From assembly GCF_000814005.1 (NCBI RefSeq), contig NZ_JWLK01000001.1:744001-808000 (forward strand): DNA of 64,000 nucleotides, in the 5' to 3' direction. The stretch is from Ruegeria sp. ANG-S4 (GTDB lineage: Bacteria; Pseudomonadota; Alphaproteobacteria; Rhodobacterales; Rhodobacteraceae). Under the pieces are notes generated by a model. It did not search any database and was not told where the DNA came from. It worked only from the letters and a program-made list of their open reading frames with translations. Made by a program: the position numbers and the translations under genes. Positions 39,621 to 48,547 of the stretch are shown piece after piece (position 1 is the first letter of the stretch; the number at the start of each line of letters is the position of its first letter).

Positions 39621-40487
39621 TCAGGCGACGTTTTGCAAGGCCGTGCGTGGTGTGATCCCCAGTGCAAAGCAAACGTCACGCGTCAGTTCTGGACGGTTCA
39701 GAGTGTAAAAGTGCAGCTTGTCCACACCACCTTCGATCAGGTCGGAACACAGTTCGGTGCATAGTGCGGTCGCCAGCAGCTCTTCGCGATCATCTCGCAA
39801 TGCCTTTTCAAACGCCTGCTCGACCCAACCCGGTATGCGAGTTCCGCAGCGTCGCGCGAAGTTGCGGGCACCTTTCCAGTTTTCAATCGGCAAAATGCCC
39901 GGAACGATGGGCTTGTCGATGCCAGCTTTTTCGCAAGCGTCGCGAAAGCGGAAAAAGGTTTCGGCCTCAAAAAAGAACTGCGTTAGCGCCTCGTCTGCGC
40001 CTGCGTCCAGCTTGGCTTTCAACCAATCCACATTTGTGCGGGCACATTGCGCTTCGGGGTGGACGTCAGGGTATGCGCCGACACGAATGTTGAAACGTCT
40101 GGTTTCGGCAAGCGCTGAAATCAGTTCGACGGAATTGGCAAACCCTTCGGGATGCGGTGTGAACTGATCCTGACCCTTTGGTGGGTCGCCACGCAATGCA
40201 ACAATGTCTGTTACGCCTGCTTCGGCAAACCCGTTGGCGATGTCCAAGGTCTCGGCGCGGGTCGCATCGACGCACGTCAGATGCGCTGCGACCTTCAGGC
40301 CGGACGACTTGTGCAACGTTGAAACAGCGTCACGGGTCAATTCGCGGGTTGCCCCGCCTGCACCATATGTGACCGAAACAAACCGGGGTTCCAGCGGCGC
40401 AAGGGTCTGAACCGTGTCCCAAAGGCGAAAGGATGCCTCAAGCGTCTGGGGCGGGAAGAACTCAAAGGAAATCTCTGGCTTGCTCAT
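39621..40487 (-). CDS. metF: Methylenetetrahydrofolate reductase
   Basis: 288 residues. It reduces 5,10-methylene-THF to 5-methyl-THF with NADH and FAD, supplying methionine synthase. The catalytic Glu is in SFEFFPP; FAD-contact blocks are LRGDPPKG and HPEAQ, and FFFEAETFFRFRD is typical. The start at 40487 is chosen over 40529. It is divergent from metR, with a MetR-like box between. Confidence 0.96.
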   Translation of the reverse strand: MSKPEISFEFFPPQTLEASFRLWDTVQTLAPLEPRFVSVTYGAGGATRELTRDAVSTLHKSSGLKVAAHLTCVDATRAETLDIANGFAEAGVTDIVALRGDPPKGQDQFTPHPEGFANSVELISALAETRRFNIRVGAYPDVHPEAQCARTNVDWLKAKLDAGADEALTQFFFEAETFFRFRDACEKAGIDKPIVPGILPIENWKGARNFARRCGTRIPGWVEQAFEKALRDDREELLATALCTELCSDLIEGGVDKLHFYTLNRPELTRDVCFALGITPRTALQNVA

Positions 40488-40535
40488 CGTCGTCTCTCGA
40501 TTGCCGTTTGTGCTCTTGTGCCATGCCAATCGTTG

Positions 40536-40548
40536 TGAGACAAACTCA
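40536..40548. promoter_or_regulatory. Candidate MetR box between metF and metR
   Basis: The dyad TGAG-N5-CTCA resembles the TGAA-N5-TTCA MetR consensus described in enterobacteria. A second looser pair CTCA/TGAG lies just to the right (40554-40570). It is 34 bases from the metR ATG and 49 from the metF ATG, suitable for divergent control. Confidence 0.5.
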
Positions 40549-40581
40549 TATTACTCAAGAACAACATGAGGCATACTGGAT

Positions 40582-41487
40582 ATGCACATCGAATTCCGCC
40601 ATCTCCGCACCATCAAGGCGATCCATGACTGCGGCGGCTTGGCGCGTGCAGCGGATCAACTGAACATCACACAGTCGGCGCTGAGCCATCAGATCAAAGG
40701 GTTGGAGGATCAGGCCGGGGTCGAGCTGTTCCTGCGTCGGTCCAAGCCAATGAAACTTTCGGCCGCAGGGTTTCGCCTGTTGCGGTTGGCAGAGCAGATC
40801 CTGCCGCAGGTCGAGGCGACACTGGACGAGTTTTCGTCTCTGCGTGACGGGCGCACCGGGCGCATGCATATCGCAATCGAATGTCACGCCTGCTTTGAGT
40901 GGCTGTTTCCGGTTTTGGAGAGCTTTCGGAAATCCTGGCCGGATGTGGATGTCGATATTCGCCCCGGTCTGGCCTTTGACGCGATCCCGGCCTTGCAAAA
41001 AGAAGAAGTCGACTTGGTCGTCTCTTCCGACCCGGAGGACCTGCCGGGCGTCGAATTCGTTGAACTGTTCGACTACAACCCTGTATTCGTCGCTGCATCG
41101 ACGCATCCCTTGGCCAAAAAGCCTTATGTTGAGGCAGAAGATTTTCGCGGGCAGACGCTGATAACGTACCCGGTGGAACGCACGCGTCTGGACGTGTTCA
41201 GCCAGCTGTTGATCCCGGAACGCGTTGAACCGGCGGCGATTCGTCAGGTTGAACTGACCGCGGTTATCTTGCTTTTGGTCGCGTCGAACCGAGGGATATC
41301 GGTTTTGCCGGATTGGGTCGTGCGCGAGGTCCAGTACAGTTCGGATTACGTAACACGCCCTCTAACCAAGGAGGGGATCACGAGGCGACTTTACGCCTCC
41401 GTAAGATCGGAAGATCTGGAAAAGCCCTTTGTGCAGGAACTGGTCAAACTTGCCCGCACCGAGGCGCGCAAACTGCAGGCACAGTAA
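40582..41487 (+). CDS. metR: LysR family regulator, MetR-like
   Basis: 301 residues. The N-terminal HTH is HLRTIKAIHDCGGLARAADQ followed by LNITQSALSHQIKGLE; the effector domain has HIAIECHACFEWLFPVLE, the MetR-typical stretch. MetR activates methionine genes with homocysteine as co-effector. The divergent metF neighbour strongly supports the name. Confidence 0.92.
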   Translation: MHIEFRHLRTIKAIHDCGGLARAADQLNITQSALSHQIKGLEDQAGVELFLRRSKPMKLSAAGFRLLRLAEQILPQVEATLDEFSSLRDGRTGRMHIAIECHACFEWLFPVLESFRKSWPDVDVDIRPGLAFDAIPALQKEEVDLVVSSDPEDLPGVEFVELFDYNPVFVAASTHPLAKKPYVEAEDFRGQTLITYPVERTRLDVFSQLLIPERVEPAAIRQVELTAVILLLVASNRGISVLPDWVVREVQYSSDYVTRPLTKEGITRRLYASVRSEDLEKPFVQELVKLARTEARKLQAQ

Positions 41488-41583
41488 GCACAAAACAAGG
41501 GTCTGCTATGCGCATCATTCCTCTTGGCAAGGACGCATTGCCCCAGTATACGCGCGGTTTGACCGGACAGGAGCCTTTTGAAG

Positions 41584-42369
41584 ATGGTTGGCAGCGCAAA
41601 CCTTAACATCATGATCAAAGCCGCGCGCAAAGCGGGGCGCTCTCTGGTCAAGGACTTTCGCGAAGTCGAGAACCTGCAGGTGTCCATGAAGGGCGCAGGC
41701 GACTTTGTGTCAAAGGCGGATATCGCGGCCGAAGCAATTCTGAAAGAGGAACTGTTGGGCGCACGTCCGACCTATGGTTGGCTGGCCGAAGAGGGCGGTT
41801 CAATCGATGGCGAGGATCCAACCCGCCGCTGGATCGTTGATCCGCTCGATGGCACCACGAATTTTCTGCACGGGCTCCCACATTGGGCGGTTTCCATTGC
41901 ACTGGAACATAAGGGTAAAATCGTTACCGGCGTGATTTATGACGCAGCCAAGGACGAGATGTTCTTTGCCGAAAAGGGCGAAGGTGCTTGGATGAATGAT
42001 ACCCGTATCCGCGTTTCTGGCCGCCACCGTATGATCGAGTCGATTTTTTCTACCGGCTTGCCGTTTGGCGGCCGCGCGGATTTGCCGGAAACGCTTCAGG
42101 ATTTGGCGCGCTTGATGCCCGCCTGCGCAGGCGTTCGGCGCTGGGGTGCTGCCGCACTGGACATGGCGTATGTCGCGGCCGGCCGATACGAGGGGTTCTG
42201 GGAGCGTCGTCTGAACGCATGGGATCTTGCCGCAGGTATTATAATCGTCAAGGAAGCCGGCGGTTTTGTGCAGCCGCTGAACCCCGAAGGTAGCGTTCTG
42301 GAGGATGGCGAAGTCATTTGCTCCAACGAGCCGATCTTTGATCAGTTCGCCAAGGTGATACGGGCCTGA
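41584..42369 (+). CDS. Inositol monophosphatase family protein (SuhB-like)
   Basis: 261 residues. Metal-binding motifs of the family are present: LAEEGG (Glu69-70), WIVDPLDGTTNFLHG (83-97) and NAWDLAAGIIIVKEAGG. It hydrolyses inositol 1-phosphate or related sugar phosphates; SuhB in E. coli also aids rRNA antitermination. ATG 41584 follows an AGGAG with a 10-base spacer; TTG 41578 is possible. A 96-base gap separates it from metR. Confidence 0.93.
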   Translation: MVGSANLNIMIKAARKAGRSLVKDFREVENLQVSMKGAGDFVSKADIAAEAILKEELLGARPTYGWLAEEGGSIDGEDPTRRWIVDPLDGTTNFLHGLPHWAVSIALEHKGKIVTGVIYDAAKDEMFFAEKGEGAWMNDTRIRVSGRHRMIESIFSTGLPFGGRADLPETLQDLARLMPACAGVRRWGAAALDMAYVAAGRYEGFWERRLNAWDLAAGIIIVKEAGGFVQPLNPEGSVLEDGEVICSNEPIFDQFAKVIRA

Positions 42370-42391
42370 GCGGCCCGTAAAAGCAGGAAAG

Positions 42392-42418
42392 CGTGCCCGG
42401 ATGGGTGCGTGTTTTTTT
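42392..42418 (+). terminator. Rho-independent terminator after the inositol monophosphatase gene
   Basis: A 7-bp stem CGTGCCC/GGGTGCG (two G-T pairs) with a 4-base loop is followed by seven T residues (42412-42418). A second perfect 7-bp inverted repeat ACGGGCC/GGCCCGT spans the gene's stop codon at 42360-42378. Confidence 0.75.
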
Positions 42419-43403
42419 AAAGAGTCACTTTGTTGGCCAGACCGGTGTTTTTCGCCAACTGCGCCGCAACCGATGCGACCGCCAGATCCTGAAGCCCCAC
42501 GCCGGTTCCATCGAACAAAGTAATTTCCGCGTCATTGCTGCGACCGATGTGATCGCCGTTGATCACCGCTCCGATTGGGGTGATCGCATCCTGCGAAATT
42601 TCACCCTTCAGCGCCGCGTGTTGGGCCTCGCCAATTGAAATCGACTGCGCCACCTCGTCGGTAAACAGCGTCGCTGCCGCGACCAAGGCGGGGTCCACTT
42701 CCATCTTGCCTTTTGTATCGGTGCCCATACAGGCCAAATGGGTACCGGGCTTGACCCAGTCTTTCTTCAGCAGCGGTTCAAAGGCCGACGTGATGGTGAT
42801 GATGACATCCGCTTGGGCGCCCAGGCCTTCGGGGGTTGTGGCTTCGAATTCAAGCCCGAGATCTTCTGCGACCTCAGCCAACCTCGGCAACATCTCTGGG
42901 TGTGGGTTCCAGGCGACGACTTTCTCAAACTCGCGCTGTTCGGCAGCGGCGCGAAGCTGGAATGTCGATTGATGGCCTGCGCCAACCATCCCCAGAATCT
43001 GTGCATCCGGACGCGCCAAATGAGCGATAGAGATGGCAGATGAGGCTGCAGTTCGCACTGCAGTCATGTAGTTTCCCCCAACCAAAGCGGTAATGCGGCC
43101 CGTATCAGGGTCGAACAGCACGACTGTGGATTGGTGATTTGTCAAACCCTTCTGTGAATTGCCTGGCCAATAGCCGCCGGATTTGACACCCAGCACTTGC
43201 CCGGACCGGTCAAAGCCTGATTTGAACCCGTAAATCGCGTCGGCATGACCAAGTGCTTCCCGCACGACCGGAAAGTTCCGGGCGTCTCCACGTGCCATCG
43301 CAGCAAAGACATCCTGCACGGCGTCAAACGCCTGTTGTCGGCCAACCAACTGTTCGCAAGCGTCTTCGTCAACGATCAACAACCCGTCTGTTTGCGTATT
43401 CAT
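42417..43403 (-). CDS. bhcD: Iminosuccinate reductase, beta-hydroxyaspartate cycle (ornithine cyclodeaminase/mu-crystallin family)
   Basis: 328 residues. The NAD-binding fold is marked by LGMVGAGHQS; GGNYMTAVRTAASSA and GTHLACMGTDTKGKMEVD are typical of the ornithine cyclodeaminase/alanine dehydrogenase superfamily. In the beta-hydroxyaspartate cycle it reduces iminosuccinate to L-aspartate. That role is taken from the gene order bhcA-B-C-D, which is the same as in Paracoccus denitrificans. The start is 43403 (MNTQTDG) or 43415. Last gene of the operon. Confidence 0.9.
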   Translation of the reverse strand: MNTQTDGLLIVDEDACEQLVGRQQAFDAVQDVFAAMARGDARNFPVVREALGHADAIYGFKSGFDRSGQVLGVKSGGYWPGNSQKGLTNHQSTVVLFDPDTGRITALVGGNYMTAVRTAASSAISIAHLARPDAQILGMVGAGHQSTFQLRAAAEQREFEKVVAWNPHPEMLPRLAEVAEDLGLEFEATTPEGLGAQADVIITITSAFEPLLKKDWVKPGTHLACMGTDTKGKMEVDPALVAAATLFTDEVAQSISIGEAQHAALKGEISQDAITPIGAVINGDHIGRSNDAEITLFDGTGVGLQDLAVASVAAQLAKNTGLANKVTL

Positions 43404-43417
43404 CTCATCTCTCATCG

Positions 43418-44581
43418 TCAAAAAGCCTTGCCACGCGCGGAAACCGGCCACAGCGCTTCGACCTTTCCGTTGCGCACCCCGACATACCAATCGTGGACAT
43501 TGCATGTGGGGTCACAGTGGCCCGGTACCAGCCGCAGCTTGTCGTTCACCTTCAACACACCATCCGGATCGCCGATTACGCCGTGCTCATCCGAACACTT
43601 CAGGTATTCCACGTCATCACGCCCGAAAACAAAGGGCAGACCGCTGTCGACAGATTGCGCCTTGAGCCCTGCATCACAAATGGCCTTGTCCGGTTTTGCG
43701 TGGCTCATGACACTGGTCAGAATGAACAGTGCATTCTCCCATTCGCCCTGATCAATCCGCTTGCCATCTTTGTCCAGTATCCGGCCATAGTCGGCATCCA
43801 TGAATGCGTAAGAGCCACATTGAAGTTCGTTGTAAACACCCGAGTTGCTTTCAAAATAGTACGACCCGGTGCCGCCACCCGAGACCAACTCGCACGCGAT
43901 GCCTTCGGCTTTCAGGCCGTCAACGGCGTCTTTGACCATTGCGATTGCGGTATCGAGCTTTTCCTGACGTGCCTCATATGTATCCAGATGCTGCATCGCG
44001 CCCTGATAGGCCTGAATGCCGGTGAACTTTAAGTTCGGCGCAGACTCGACCGCTTTTGCAATTGCGATCACGTCGGACGTGGTGGTCACCCCGCAGCGAC
44101 CGGCGCCGCAGTCGATTTCGACAAAGACCTCCAACTCTGTTCCATGTTTCTGAGCTGCCGCCGATAGATCCGGGATATTGTCGATGTCATCCACGCAGAC
44201 GATTGTGCGCGCTCCAAGCGTAGGCAATTTGGCCAGTCGGTCGATTTTGGCCGGATCGCGAACTTGGTTTGAAACCAGAATGTCCGTGATGCCGCCGCGC
44301 GCGAACACTTCCGCCTCGGACACTTTCTGACAGCACACGCCCACGGCGCCGCCCAGCCTTTCCTGCAGTTTCGCAATGTCCACCGATTTGTGCATCTTGC
44401 CATGTACGCGGTGGCGCATCCCGTGCGTTTTGGCATAGTCGCCCATTTTCCTGATGTTCCGCTCAAGCGCGTCCAGATCCAGGATCAGGCAAGGGGTCTG
44501 TACGTCAGACTCGTCCATGCCGATTGCAGCAGGGATGTCGTATCCGACGTCCAGTTGGTCAATGTTCACGGGTTTGTTCAT
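43418..44581 (-). CDS. bhcC: beta-Hydroxyaspartate aldolase (D-threonine aldolase-like)
   Basis: 387 residues, fold-type III PLP enzyme. The N-terminal TPCLILDLDALERNI and MRHRVHGKMHKS (PLP lysine near 62) match D-threonine aldolases; the metal site is HCDPTCNVHDWYV near the C-terminus. In the cycle it condenses glycine with glyoxylate to (2R,3S)-beta-hydroxyaspartate. The gene lies 11 bases after bhcB and 14 before bhcD. Confidence in the specific role rests on the complete cluster. Confidence 0.92.
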   Translation of the reverse strand: MNKPVNIDQLDVGYDIPAAIGMDESDVQTPCLILDLDALERNIRKMGDYAKTHGMRHRVHGKMHKSVDIAKLQERLGGAVGVCCQKVSEAEVFARGGITDILVSNQVRDPAKIDRLAKLPTLGARTIVCVDDIDNIPDLSAAAQKHGTELEVFVEIDCGAGRCGVTTTSDVIAIAKAVESAPNLKFTGIQAYQGAMQHLDTYEARQEKLDTAIAMVKDAVDGLKAEGIACELVSGGGTGSYYFESNSGVYNELQCGSYAFMDADYGRILDKDGKRIDQGEWENALFILTSVMSHAKPDKAICDAGLKAQSVDSGLPFVFGRDDVEYLKCSDEHGVIGDPDGVLKVNDKLRLVPGHCDPTCNVHDWYVGVRNGKVEALWPVSARGKAF

Positions 44582-44592
44582 CCTGTTCCTCC

Positions 44593-45564
44593 TTACCCCT
44601 GAAGCCAGGGCAGCTTGTCCAAGTCCACATTTCCGCCGGTGACAATCACGCCGACGCGTTTGCCGCCGAAGGCTTCGGGATTCTTCAGTATCGTAGCGAG
44701 CGGCACGGCCGACGATGGTTCCATCACCACACGCAAGTATTTCCAGCCGAGTTTCATCGCCTCAACGATTTCATCTTCAGACGCGGTGAAAATGTCCGTC
44801 ACGTCGTTGGACACAAAGTGCCATGTGTTTTCCTTGAGCGGCACAAGCAATCCGTCAGCGATGGTTTTGGGGGCGTCATCGGCGATAATGTGACCCGCCT
44901 TGAAAGAGCGGTAGGCATCATCGGCCTGTTCGGGCTCCGCCGCGTATATTGCGGTTTCCGAGGCCAGATTGGACACGGTCAGACAAGTGCCCGAGATCAT
45001 TCCGCCACCTCCTATTGGCGCAATGACGGCATCTACGCCCCCCGTTTGTTCGAGCATTTCGGCGGAACAGGTCGCCTGACCCGCAATGACCCTCGGATCG
45101 TTGTAGGGATGCACGAATTCGCCACCTGTGCGGGCTTGAACCTCGGCAAAAGTTGCCTCGCGGGACGACGTTGATGGCTCGCATTCCGTAATGGTTCCGC
45201 CATAGCGCCGTACCGCATCTTTCTTGGCTTGCGGCGCGGTGTGCGGCATGACCACGTTGCATGGAATGCCTCGGCGGCCAGCGGCATAGGACAGCGACAG
45301 TGCGTGGTTGCCGCTGGAATGCGTGCATACACCCCTGGCGGCCATATCCTCGCTCAGACCAAACACAGCGTTGCACGCGCCGCGCACTTTGAAGGCACCT
45401 GCTTCCTGAAAATTCTCGCATTTGAAGAACAACTGCGCGCCGGTGAGGTCGTTCAGGAAGTCCGACCGAAGAACCGGGGTACGCCGAATATACGGTTTGA
45501 TCCGGTCATGGGCCGTCTGCATGTCATCGATCGTCAAGTCGGCGGCAGGGGTATGGTCCAACAT
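44593..45564 (-). CDS. bhcB: beta-Hydroxyaspartate dehydratase (threonine dehydratase-like)
   Basis: 323 residues, fold-type II PLP enzyme. Lys59 in GAFKVRGA is the PLP lysine, SSGNHALS the asparagine loop, and the glycine loop is IGGGGMISG. It removes water from beta-hydroxyaspartate to give iminosuccinate. On its own it could pass for threonine/serine dehydratase; the position between bhcA and bhcC decides. It is 11 bases after bhcA. Confidence 0.92.
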   Translation of the reverse strand: MLDHTPAADLTIDDMQTAHDRIKPYIRRTPVLRSDFLNDLTGAQLFFKCENFQEAGAFKVRGACNAVFGLSEDMAARGVCTHSSGNHALSLSYAAGRRGIPCNVVMPHTAPQAKKDAVRRYGGTITECEPSTSSREATFAEVQARTGGEFVHPYNDPRVIAGQATCSAEMLEQTGGVDAVIAPIGGGGMISGTCLTVSNLASETAIYAAEPEQADDAYRSFKAGHIIADDAPKTIADGLLVPLKENTWHFVSNDVTDIFTASEDEIVEAMKLGWKYLRVVMEPSSAVPLATILKNPEAFGGKRVGVIVTGGNVDLDKLPWLQG

Positions 45565-45575
45565 GATTTCCCTCC

Positions 45576-46766
45576 TTACGCGGCGGCTTGAGCCCGGCCT
45601 TGCGAACCAGACCGAAAATAATCCTGCGCTGCGGCAACGCCGCTGCCCAGTTCAATTGGATAATTCAAGTCCGCCATCGCCATTTCGATCGTGGCCAACC
45701 CTGACAAAACCATGACATCCGTCAGGCTGCCGAGATGCCCGATCCGAAAGGCCTTTCCATTCAGTTGTCCGAGGCCAATCCCGAAGGAAACGCCGTAGGT
45801 ATTGAACGCATGGTCCGTCAACGCGTTGCTGTCGAATCCGTCGGGCACATAAATCGCGCTGACCGTGTCCGAATACAGCTTGGGTGAGGTGGCGACCAAT
45901 TTCAGCCCCCAGGCGTCGACGGCGCGTCTAACACCCTCTGCCAACCGGAAATGACGCGCATAGACGTTGTCCAATCCTTCTTCGAACAGCATCCGAAGAC
46001 TTTCCCGCATGCCGTAGATCAGCTGCAACGGTGGCGTGTAAGGAAAGCCCCCTGACGCATTGGCCGCCATCATGTCAGCAAGATCGAAATACGTTCGCGG
46101 CAATGTGGCTGCGTCCATTGCTGCCAACGCTTTCGGGCTGACGCACAGAATTGCCATGCCTGCCGCCAGCATAAAGCCCTTTTGCGAGCCCGAGACGGCG
46201 ACATCGACGCCCCAGTTATCGAACTCGAACGGCATTGAGGCCAGCGAGCTGACGCAATCGACAAACAGCATCGCCGGGTGCCCGGCAGCGTCAATAGCTT
46301 GTCGAACGGCTGCTATGTCCGAGTATACGCCGGTAGCTGTCTCATTGTGCGTCACAAGAACTGCGCGTATCTCGCGGCCCACGTCATCGGCCAGAATGGA
46401 CTGAAAGGTCGCGGCTGGTGCACCGTCGCCCCACGCGCATTCGATGACTTGTACGTCAAGGCCGTGCCGGGCGCACAAATCGATCCATCGGTGGCTGAAA
46501 ACCCCATAGCGCGCCACCAACACCTTGTCGCCGGGGCTGAGCGTGTTCGTGATGGCCGCCTCCCATCCGCCCGTTCCGCTTGACGGGAAGGTGATGACCT
46601 GACCCTGCTGCGTTCCGAACACACTTTTGGTGTCCTCGAGAACGGGTGCAAAGGTTTCGACAAAATCCGGCGCACGGTGATCCTGGGTCTGGACCTGCAT
46701 CGCAGCACGAAGCCGATCGGGGATATTCGTCGGGCCGGGTATAAAGACCGGGTTCTGATTTGACAT
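45576..46766 (-). CDS. bhcA: Aspartate-glyoxylate aminotransferase
   Basis: 396 residues, class V aminotransferase. Lys196 in SGSQKGFML is the PLP lysine; FIPGPTNIPDRLRAAM is the typical N-terminus of serine/alanine-glyoxylate aminotransferases. In the cycle it makes glycine from glyoxylate with aspartate as donor, regenerating oxaloacetate. The start at 46766 has GGAGG 8-9 bases upstream; 46820 lacks one. It is the first gene of bhcABCD. Confidence 0.93.
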   Translation of the reverse strand: MSNQNPVFIPGPTNIPDRLRAAMQVQTQDHRAPDFVETFAPVLEDTKSVFGTQQGQVITFPSSGTGGWEAAITNTLSPGDKVLVARYGVFSHRWIDLCARHGLDVQVIECAWGDGAPAATFQSILADDVGREIRAVLVTHNETATGVYSDIAAVRQAIDAAGHPAMLFVDCVSSLASMPFEFDNWGVDVAVSGSQKGFMLAAGMAILCVSPKALAAMDAATLPRTYFDLADMMAANASGGFPYTPPLQLIYGMRESLRMLFEEGLDNVYARHFRLAEGVRRAVDAWGLKLVATSPKLYSDTVSAIYVPDGFDSNALTDHAFNTYGVSFGIGLGQLNGKAFRIGHLGSLTDVMVLSGLATIEMAMADLNYPIELGSGVAAAQDYFRSGSQGRAQAAA

Positions 46767-46814
46767 GACTGCGTCCTCCGCTTTGAAGGCAATTCTTGCG
46801 AGGCTTTGGGATTT

Positions 46815-46850
46815 TTGCAATTTTCTTGAAAAATATTTTCATTTCTGCAA
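46815..46850. promoter_or_regulatory. Candidate BhcR operator in the bhcA-bhcR divergent region
   Basis: A perfect inverted repeat TGAAAA-ATA-TTTTCA (46827-46841) is framed by outer arms TTGCA (46815-46819) and TGCAA (46846-46850). It lies 49-84 bases upstream of bhcA and over 100 bases upstream of bhcR, in the most A/T-rich stretch of the neighbourhood. IclR proteins bind dyads of this kind; the link to BhcR is inferred. Confidence 0.5.
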
Positions 46851-46967
46851 GTGTGGAGCTAAACAACTGTATTTGATCAGATTTCTGTTTTTCAATTCAT
46901 GGGTCACGACTCAGCCCAAAGTTCTTTTTTTGCCGGAAGATGAGAAAGTGCTTGGAAAGGACGCGAC

Positions 46968-47786
46968 ATGGAGCCTCCCAAAAGACCGCGTGGCAGGCCC
47001 AAATCCCTGTTCAAGGAAAGCTCTGCCGGGACCATGCAGTCGCTGGATCGCGCGTTGGGCGTTTTGACAGCGGTGGGGGAGGTCGAGCGTGCCGCGCTGA
47101 GCGATCTGTCCCGGGCTACCGGTGTTCCGACAGCAACCACGCACCGTATTTTGTCCACGCTGCAAAAGCACGGGTTTGTCGCATTCGATGACGAGCGACA
47201 GGAATGGATGATCGGGATCGAAGCCTACCGGACCGGTGCTTCCTTTTTGCGACGCAGCAGTGTGCTTGAGGTCGGGCGTCCGATCCTGCGTCGTTTGATG
47301 CGTCAAAGCGGAGAGACCGCAAATCTCGCCGTTCCGGATGGCGCTGAGGTTGTGTTCATCGGGCAGGTTGAGACGCAAAACCCGATCCGCGCCTTTTTCC
47401 CGCCTGGCGCACGAACGCCTATGTATGCCTCGGGAACAGGCAAGGCGATCTTGTCGGCTCTTGATGAAACGGCAGTGACCACTTTGATGACCCGGCTGGA
47501 TCCTGTTGCCTTCACCGAACATACGCGATTGCCCGGTGACGATCTGCTTGAGGATTTGGCTAAAACACGCGCGCGTGGGTGGTCGCATGACCGGGAAGAG
47601 CGGTATTACGGCATGTCCTGTATCGGGGCCGCGATCTTCGACAACAAGGCCGAACCCTGCGCTGGTGTTTCGGTCTCGGGCCCGACGGTCAGGTTCGGAC
47701 CGGATCGCGCACCGGAATTGGCAGCTCTGGTCACGCAAGCAGCGTCAGAGATTACCGAACTCAGCGGAGGACAATTGCCCCCCTGA
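46968..47786 (+). CDS. bhcR: IclR family regulator of the beta-hydroxyaspartate cycle
   Basis: 272 residues. The N-terminal winged helix includes SLDRALGVLTAVGEVERAAL and GVPTATTHRILSTLQKHGF; the C-terminal ligand domain has MYASGTGKAILSAL and the final GISVSGP-like AGVSVSGPT. In Paracoccus the divergent BhcR senses glyoxylate. The divergent position and family are the same here. The stop is 17 bases from the convergent rhomboid gene. Confidence 0.92.
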   Translation: MEPPKRPRGRPKSLFKESSAGTMQSLDRALGVLTAVGEVERAALSDLSRATGVPTATTHRILSTLQKHGFVAFDDERQEWMIGIEAYRTGASFLRRSSVLEVGRPILRRLMRQSGETANLAVPDGAEVVFIGQVETQNPIRAFFPPGARTPMYASGTGKAILSALDETAVTTLMTRLDPVAFTEHTRLPGDDLLEDLAKTRARGWSHDREERYYGMSCIGAAIFDNKAEPCAGVSVSGPTVRFGPDRAPELAALVTQAASEITELSGGQLPP

Positions 47787-47803
47787 GTCTGTCTTGGAAC
47801 CGC

Positions 47804-48547
47804 CTATCGGCGCGGTACACGCGGAATGCGTGATTGGGACAGCTTGTATTTGTACTCTGGATGGGGTGGATGGCCGTGGGTGCGCGTCCAAAACGCAGTG
47901 CCGCCACGTCTGATCCAAATTGGGATACACAAGACAAGACCTACGAAAAAGCCGCCGGTATGGGCCCAATAAGCGACCCCACCCTGATCCGGGTCACTGG
48001 CGAGGCTGCCGACGAATTGCAATCCGAGCCATACGCACAGCATCACATAGGCCGGAATTGCGAATACCCGGAAATAAACGATCAAAATCAGCAGTATATC
48101 AACACGCGCTTTCGGAAACAGCAGAAGGTAGCCGCCCATCACGGCCGCAATGGCACCAGAGGCGCCGATTGTCGGTACAATCGAACCCGGTGCTGTCAGT
48201 ACATGAACCAACCCGGCGCCAACGCCTGCGACCAGATAAAACAACAAAAAGGGCAGGTGGCCCATCTCGTCTTCCAGATTGTCACCAAAGATCCAAAGAA
48301 ACAGCATGTTTCCCGCCAGATGCATCCAGCCGCCATGCAGGAACATTGATGTCACCAAGGTTTCCAGTGCGACGCCATCCGCAATTCGCGCCGGAATGAT
48401 GGCATAGTCGAAGTAAAGACGACCAATAAGCCGGGCATCGTCCATGATCCCTACGTAGCTGAGGAAGATCAGAACGTTGGCCGCCATCAGCAAATAAACG
48501 ACATATGGAGTTCGCCCCGAGGGGTTATGATCACGGATCGGAAACAT
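47804..48547 (-). CDS. Rhomboid family intramembrane serine protease
   Basis: 247 residues, six membrane helices. The catalytic dyad is Ser130 (IGASGAIAAVMGGY) and His196 (YWAHTGGFFVG); the upstream HGGWMHLAGNMLFLWIFG is the family's loop-1/helix-2 signature. Substrates are unknown. It follows putA's 3' side on the same strand, with 42 bases between them, and could be co-transcribed with it. Confidence 0.94.
   Translation of the reverse strand: MFPIRDHNPSGRTPYVVYLLMAANVLIFLSYVGIMDDARLIGRLYFDYAIIPARIADGVALETLVTSMFLHGGWMHLAGNMLFLWIFGDNLEDEMGHLPFLLFYLVAGVGAGLVHVLTAPGSIVPTIGASGAIAAVMGGYLLLFPKARVDILLILIVYFRVFAIPAYVMLCVWLGLQFVGSLASDPDQGGVAYWAHTGGFFVGLVLCIPIWIRRGGTAFWTRTHGHPPHPEYKYKLSQSRIPRVPRR

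Follow-up and report, generated by a model that had tools for sequence, protein, structure and literature searches.

The question raised by a 64,000-nucleotide stretch of the Ruegeria sp. ANG-S4 genome (contig NZ_JWLK01000001.1, positions 744,001 to 808,000; called the window here, with positions counted from its first letter) is whether the genes at 42417-47786 form a complete operon for the beta-hydroxyaspartate cycle (BHAC), and how this operon is related to that of Paracoccus denitrificans. Our results make it almost certain that the interval holds an intact bhcD-bhcC-bhcB-bhcA operon with a divergent bhcR. BHAC itself is an already known pathway, and the window operon is a divergent, free-standing version of it.

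Identity of the operon

The original prediction, which was made from the sequence, had proposed a complete bhcABCD set with a divergent bhcR, and this was borne out: all five open reading frames are uninterrupted at the expected coordinates, and their products fall into the proposed families, with the Pfam domains Aminotran_5 (BhcA), PALP (BhcB), Ala_racemase_N plus D-ser_dehydrat (BhcC), OCD_Mu_crystall (BhcD), and HTH_IclR plus IclR_C (BhcR). The tight spacing of 11-14 bases was likewise measured, with gaps of 14 bases between bhcD and bhcC and of 11 bases each for bhcC/bhcB and bhcB/bhcA, and AAGGAGG sequences are found 5' of bhcB and bhcC. Although the reading frame of bhcA mechanically opens with the TTG at 46820, the ATG at 46766 was taken as the gene start. 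All four enzymes exceeded the curated equivalog cut-offs of their NCBIfam models: BhcA (NF045640, 712 bits, cut-off 650), BhcB (NF045641, 575 bits, cut-off 550), BhcC (NF045642, 772 bits, cut-off 690), and BhcD (NF045643, 565 bits, cut-off 500). The top PDB match of BhcC was 6qkb, a D-3-hydroxyaspartate aldolase (79.8% identity), and that of BhcD was 6rqa, an iminosuccinate reductase (62% identity); we take both to be the Paracoccus enzymes, the search tables giving no organism. Divergence of active-site residues from the proven enzymes had been named as what would speak against the assignment, and where there is a proven reference the residues are conserved: 6qkb keeps 178 of the 180 BhcC columns that are invariant over the window and 80 loci, and 6rqa keeps all 90 BhcD columns that do not vary across the window and 77 loci, BhcA and BhcB being without such a reference.

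The arrangement, with bhcR divergent from bhcA, bhcB, bhcC, and bhcD in that order, was found in 70 of 80 named bhcC loci, which are the best 80 of 590 BhcC-encoding loci; in the other ten, at least one gene is below threshold or off the end of the locus. Within the 70, the bhcD match of L027 is partial, and the regulator matches of L013, L028, and L061 reach only 27-29%. This conservation indicates that the gene order is not due to chance and, together with the scores of the four enzymes, agrees with the proposed Paracoccus-type family set and order. P. denitrificans HAMBI_2443 has these five families too, arranged alike and with a divergent bhcR; its genes were located by tblastn as the record is unannotated. 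The proposed match to the Paracoccus proteins is close for BhcC and BhcB (80% identity each) but not for BhcA (63%), BhcD (62%), and BhcR (42%), which in the window belong to a separate lineage, with BhcR just under the cut-off of its model. The claim that single-gene annotations would miss this system did not hold, since NCBI models are named for all five proteins and public plasmid records carry bhc names. The operon was thus identified correctly, as that of a known pathway, subject to these corrections. The features are listed in Table 1.

Table 1. Coordinates of the bhc genes, the promoter elements, and the bordering genes in the window
Feature	Position	Strand	Remarks
bhcA, L-aspartate:glyoxylate aminotransferase (type II lineage)	45576..46766	minus	396 aa, ATG at 46766
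bhcB, beta-hydroxyaspartate dehydratase	44593..45564	minus	323 aa
bhcC, 3-hydroxy-D-aspartate aldolase	43418..44581	minus	387 aa
bhcD, iminosuccinate reductase (type II lineage)	42417..43403	minus	328 aa from ATG 43403; 43415 also possible
bhcR, IclR-family regulator	46968..47786	plus	272 aa; divergent from bhcA
Divergent bhcA/bhcR promoter region	46767..46967		201 bp
Palindrome TGAAA-N5-TTTCA, candidate BhcR operator	46827..46841		61-75 bp 5' of bhcA start
Inositol-monophosphatase family gene	41578..42369	plus	PF00459; left border of fixed site
Rhomboid family gene	47804..48547	minus	PF01694; right border of fixed site

Proposed cycle and supply of glyoxylate

BhcA would transfer the amino group of aspartate to glyoxylate, yielding glycine and oxaloacetate, BhcC would join the glycine to a second glyoxylate to form beta-hydroxyaspartate, BhcB would dehydrate this to iminosuccinate, and BhcD would reduce iminosuccinate to aspartate, thereby closing the cycle, with a predicted net conversion of two glyoxylate to one oxaloacetate without loss of CO2. 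These single enzyme steps are in part general background. Glyoxylate would be supplied by an unlinked glcDEF-like enzyme from glycolate or by the ureide pathway from purines. In a study on Paracoccus, the conversion of two glyoxylate to oxaloacetate in four steps is described to release no CO2, and the glycerate pathway based on glyoxylate carboligase (Gcl) is described as another route of glyoxylate assimilation (PMC11323563).

The window genome (4.53 Mb in 20 contigs) encodes a single PF14031 protein, which is this BhcC, and a single BhcA over the cut-off. The glycerate pathway would also assimilate glyoxylate, but no Gcl over the cut-off was found in this genome (best 324 bits, cut-off 711). 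Contiguous glcD-, glcE-, and glcF-like genes are located in this order at approximately 24-28 kb of contig C1, and GlcF passes its cut-off (463 bits against 333). Another strain, with glycolate oxidase genes but without BhcC, is reported to be able to use glycolate solely as a source of energy (PMC7574528), which fits the prediction that the bhc genes decide growth on glycolate. Growth of the window strain on glycolate is a prediction from its genes, and this marine bacterium probably uses BHAC for glyoxylate derived from algal glycolate or purines. A paralogue of BhcA resembling serine-glyoxylate aminotransferase is encoded elsewhere on C1 (1278382-1282553), divergently from a gene for a 957-aa dehydrogenase with a GlcD-like part; it scored 457 bits with the BhcA model, under the cut-off of 650.

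It is possible, though in our judgment rather unlikely, that in this strain too the operon serves purine-derived glyoxylate and not mainly glycolate. The genome does have its own ureide cluster with a ureidoglycolate lyase gene, but the cluster lies on a different contig (C17) from the bhc operon, and glcDEF-like genes are present; the two uses are not mutually exclusive. No bhc genes were found in the 16 kb taken around the C17 cluster, and no genes for allantoicase, ureidoglycolate lyase, allantoinase, or HIU hydrolase were found in the 64-kb window.

Two lineages and their distribution

In trees of the 80 named loci, BhcA, BhcD, and BhcR each split into two lineages, a Paracoccus-like type I and a type II that includes the window. 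These were quick trees, with support for the window side of 100 (BhcA), 97-99 (BhcD), and 82 (BhcR). The window groups with loci of Ruegeria, Mameliella, and Roseovarius, apart from Paracoccus, Leisingera, Shimia, and other Ruegeria. The number of positions fixed differently between the types was 12 in BhcA, 3 in BhcD, and 0 in both BhcB and BhcC, when a fixed difference was defined as at least 90% in each group and the deep-branching loci L008, L036, L037, L046, L058, L060, L064, L065, and L068 were excluded from group I. Nioella (L011) and R. denitrificans (L024) combine type II BhcA and BhcR with a type I-like BhcD, and under each of the names R. arenilitoris and R. lacuscaerulensis the records cover one type I and one type II strain. 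The literature matches listed for beta-hydroxyaspartate cycle, bhcABCD, and BhcR made no mention of two bhc lineages in their titles or abstract openings. Type II-like BhcA (78-82%) and BhcD were also seen in three gammaproteobacterial loci of Marinobacterium and Marinobacter (L013, L028, and L061), in which the IclR-like regulator, at 27-29% identity to the window BhcR, looks unrelated. Another locus (L165:6201-13120, genome G029) is a mosaic in which BhcA and BhcR are nearer to type I, BhcB and BhcC are nearer to type II, and bhcD is located approximately 1.6 kb from bhcC.

Among 54 congeneric genomes, BhcC was found in 50 and BhcA of either type in 50, type II in 32 and type I in 19, with both in G044 and neither in G002, G021, G022, and G037. 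Identity of BhcA to the window protein was either 81-86% (100% for the window itself) or 60-63%, with no values in between. Two genes border the window operon, one of the inositol-monophosphatase family and one of the rhomboid family, and in all 54 genomes both are on one contig. In 27 genomes they lie 5402-5841 bp apart, with a type II operon in the interval; in the other 27 the distance is 18-3895 bp and no intact operon is present there. In five genomes a type II operon is located away from this fixed site. The bhcD gene is kept in all 27 site operons, and in nine of these it is of the type I lineage together with type II bhcA and bhcR, indicating that single genes were exchanged as well. 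Near the left border, the window carries a divergent pair of metF and a LysR-family gene (39621-41487), the latter presumably MetR-like given its position beside metF; a similar pair is located upstream of bhcR in L052, L056, and L066.

The types also differ in their surroundings. Ureidoglycolate lyase produces glyoxylate, and its gene is present somewhere in all 54 genomes; however, a full-length copy was found within 10 kb of 18 of the 19 type I operons (the exception being G053) and of none of the 32 type II operons. A second full-length lyase gene occurs in five type I genomes, and in G026 the second lyase gene is split in two pieces. The linkage is looser when all 80 named loci are counted, Ruegeria and truncated stretches among them: the lyase gene was found in none of the 19 type II loci and in 20 of the other 61, or, for loci of at least 15 kb, in 0 of 17 and 17 of 45, respectively. 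This linkage suggests that type I serves purine-derived glyoxylate.

Type I is common on plasmids. Of 72,556 plasmid records searched, 148 had a BhcA-like match and none of these was of type II, as judged by at least 80% identity to the window BhcA; 105 matches were at 60-80% and 43 were below 60%, the latter possibly including other aminotransferases, and the best of the 60 listed was at 64.5%. Three of the matching records were from Ruegeria, and in three named Ruegeria records type I is located on a large plasmid. The megaplasmid of R. pomeroyi DSS-3, pTHAF33_a of Ruegeria sp. THAF33, and a 108-kb plasmid of Leisingera aquaemixtae carry type I operons made up of these five genes in this order, which, unlike the window operon, are plasmid-borne. 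In THAF33 and L. aquaemixtae, the neighboring genes encode allantoicase/ureidoglycine aminohydrolase, ureidoglycolate lyase, allantoinase, and HIU hydrolase, and no ureide gene was found within 6 kb of the operon on the R. pomeroyi DSS-3 megaplasmid.

Apparent loss and replacement at the fixed site

When type II proteins were used as tblastn queries against 24 of the 27 unoccupied gaps (those of G032, G038, and G039, of 18-22 bp, were too short and were excluded), remnants of all five genes were found in G007, with bhcC down to 42 residues, of bhcD and bhcR in G003 and G010, and of bhcR in G013 and G014; a bhcR-like tail was seen by eye in G004. These operon pieces at unoccupied sites point to loss, and on this ground insertion of a mobile element was rejected as the main story for the site. 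All six remnant carriers have a type I operon elsewhere. Weak matches in G022 (bhcR, 32 aa, 41%, E 0.005) and G036 (bhcC, 126 aa, 28%, E 0.008) looked like chance and were dropped. In G044, which has both types, one stop lies inside the type II bhcC and none in the type I genes; at the other 26 occupied sites, including the window, none of the five genes has an inner stop or is broken within the aligned span. The stops flagged for bhcD in G015, G019, G031, and G052 fall immediately 5' of the ATG and are an artefact of a reference that starts 7 residues early, and bhcA stops in several genus rows were taken to fall in 18 extra residues 5' of the ATG, bhcA of the site operons having no inner stops. 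For the shortest gaps, of 18-35 bp, either a complete deletion or a site that was never occupied would fit, and a repeat search of 42340-47830 found no repeat pair joining the two borders.

In a tree of the two flanking proteins, with good support for 20 of its 51 inner branches, the remnant carriers are in three separate places, G044 is without a settled position, and at least 15 changes of type are required (states I, II, and none, with G044 as I), the figure for occupancy being 11. It is improbable that ordinary vertical divergence in the genus, and not operon replacement, produced the two lineages: although BhcB and BhcC have no fixed differences between the types, as expected for orthologous copies, and the flanking-protein tree is weak in places, the types are located at different places, with type I in a ureide cluster, one genome carries both, type II remnants persist at the site in genomes with type I, and the tree requires the many changes of type given above. 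The stand-alone type II operon thus seems to have been repeatedly lost in sister species where the ureide-embedded type I is present.

BhcR, its candidate operator, and points against the assignment

In Paracoccus, BhcR is needed for growth on glycolate and glyoxylate, glyoxylate lowers its DNA binding in vitro, and a potential palindromic site is located upstream of the bhcA -35 region, as described in the same study (PMC11323563). A palindromic site is likewise present upstream of bhcA in the window, and BhcR would control the divergent promoter, probably through this palindrome 61-75 bp upstream of bhcA. Of 68 intergenic regions, 45 (13 of the 17 of type II and 32 of the 51 others) contain a looser class of the motif, TGNAA-N5-TTNCA, beginning 70-100 bp 5' of bhcA; the mean over 200 first-order Markov resamples of these regions was 0.12. 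The window BhcR agrees with the Paracoccus table at IclR positions 146, 160, 212, 220, 239, and 241, and among the glyoxylate-binding positions G160, D212, S239, and S241 are kept and 161 is changed.

Several observations nevertheless weigh against the assignment or against the history drawn here. First, the best NCBIfam model of the window BhcR, NF045644, gave 331 bits, under the curated cut-off of 350, and the gene was called BhcR-like on its position and best model; with the same model, five type II relatives scored 334-361 (two of five over 350), four type I proteins 398-411, and the deep-branching L037 350.2. Second, three pocket residues of BhcR differ from Paracoccus, positions 143, 154, and 161 being P, T, and T here and T, S, and I there. 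Third, 23 of the 68 intergenic regions have no palindrome at the given distance. Fourth, GlcE (283.5 bits, cut-off 284) and GlcD (441 bits, cut-off 568) are both under their cut-offs. Fifth, the two flank genes adjoin the site and could recombine with it, and many forks of their tree are weak. Finally, the 12 near-fixed positions at which type II BhcA departs from type I include 171, 247, and 248, which adjoin what we take to be active-site segments, and the amino donor of BhcA is therefore a prediction. A role of type II BhcA as serine- or alanine-glyoxylate aminotransferase, with glycine made from another donor and no closed aspartate-regenerating cycle, is nonetheless very improbable: the PDB relatives listed for the protein are mostly annotated as serine/alanine-glyoxylate or -pyruvate aminotransferases (the best being a serine-glyoxylate aminotransferase) and the 12 differences are in favor of such a role, but the BhcA model gave 712 bits for the window protein against 457 for its own paralogue, the window protein shares 46% identity with that paralogue and 60-63% with BhcA of type I, and the aspartate-regenerating BhcD is kept in 27 of 27 site operons.

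Related clusters

Partial clusters were seen in other genomes. A D-amino-acid-dehydrogenase-like gene is followed by bhcB, bhcC, and bhcD, without bhcA and bhcR, at L138:5189-9666 (contig C5 of G030), with a 4-hydroxyproline epimerase gene approximately 3.4 kb beyond; at G351:C8:23482-26901, such a dehydrogenase gene was seen near bhcC, nearness alone being observed, which makes at least two cases. It is a speculation that the dehydrogenase in the L138 cluster might oxidise glycine to feed the aldolase, replacing BhcA. In Salipiger thiooxidans (L051:6060-10246), bhcB-bhcC-bhcD, with only a scrap of the bhcA 3' end (by eye), adjoins a 1054-aa reading frame resembling an FAD/iron-sulphur oxidoreductase. 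An 11-kb contig of Spirulina subsalsa FACHB-351 (L078) encodes BhcB and BhcC that are 95% and 93% identical, respectively, to those of Paracoccus sp. WLY502 (L049), and this bhc record is probably contamination.

Significance

BHAC offers a carbon-saving way of using glycolate, which is a major exudate of algae, and the study of its regulation cited above (PMC11323563) deals with the Paracoccus (type I) version. One tentative account of the genus, which we regard as possible but less likely than not, is that two BHAC packages compete: a stand-alone type II at the fixed chromosomal site, adapted to glycolate, and a type I that is linked to ureide genes, often carried on plasmids, and adapted to glyoxylate from purines, so that the arrival of type I would make type II redundant and lead to its repeated decay, with mosaic operons as by-products, and the divergent pocket of type II BhcR would reflect a different effector response. 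Because the genus mixes type I, type II, a double carrier, decaying copies, and empty sites, it would allow a direct test of differences in inducer or substrate source between the two versions. The pathway itself is ordinary; it is the replacement history, showing how an operon of central carbon metabolism can be replaced wholesale, that merits the attention of specialists, as a modestly interesting piece of evolution.

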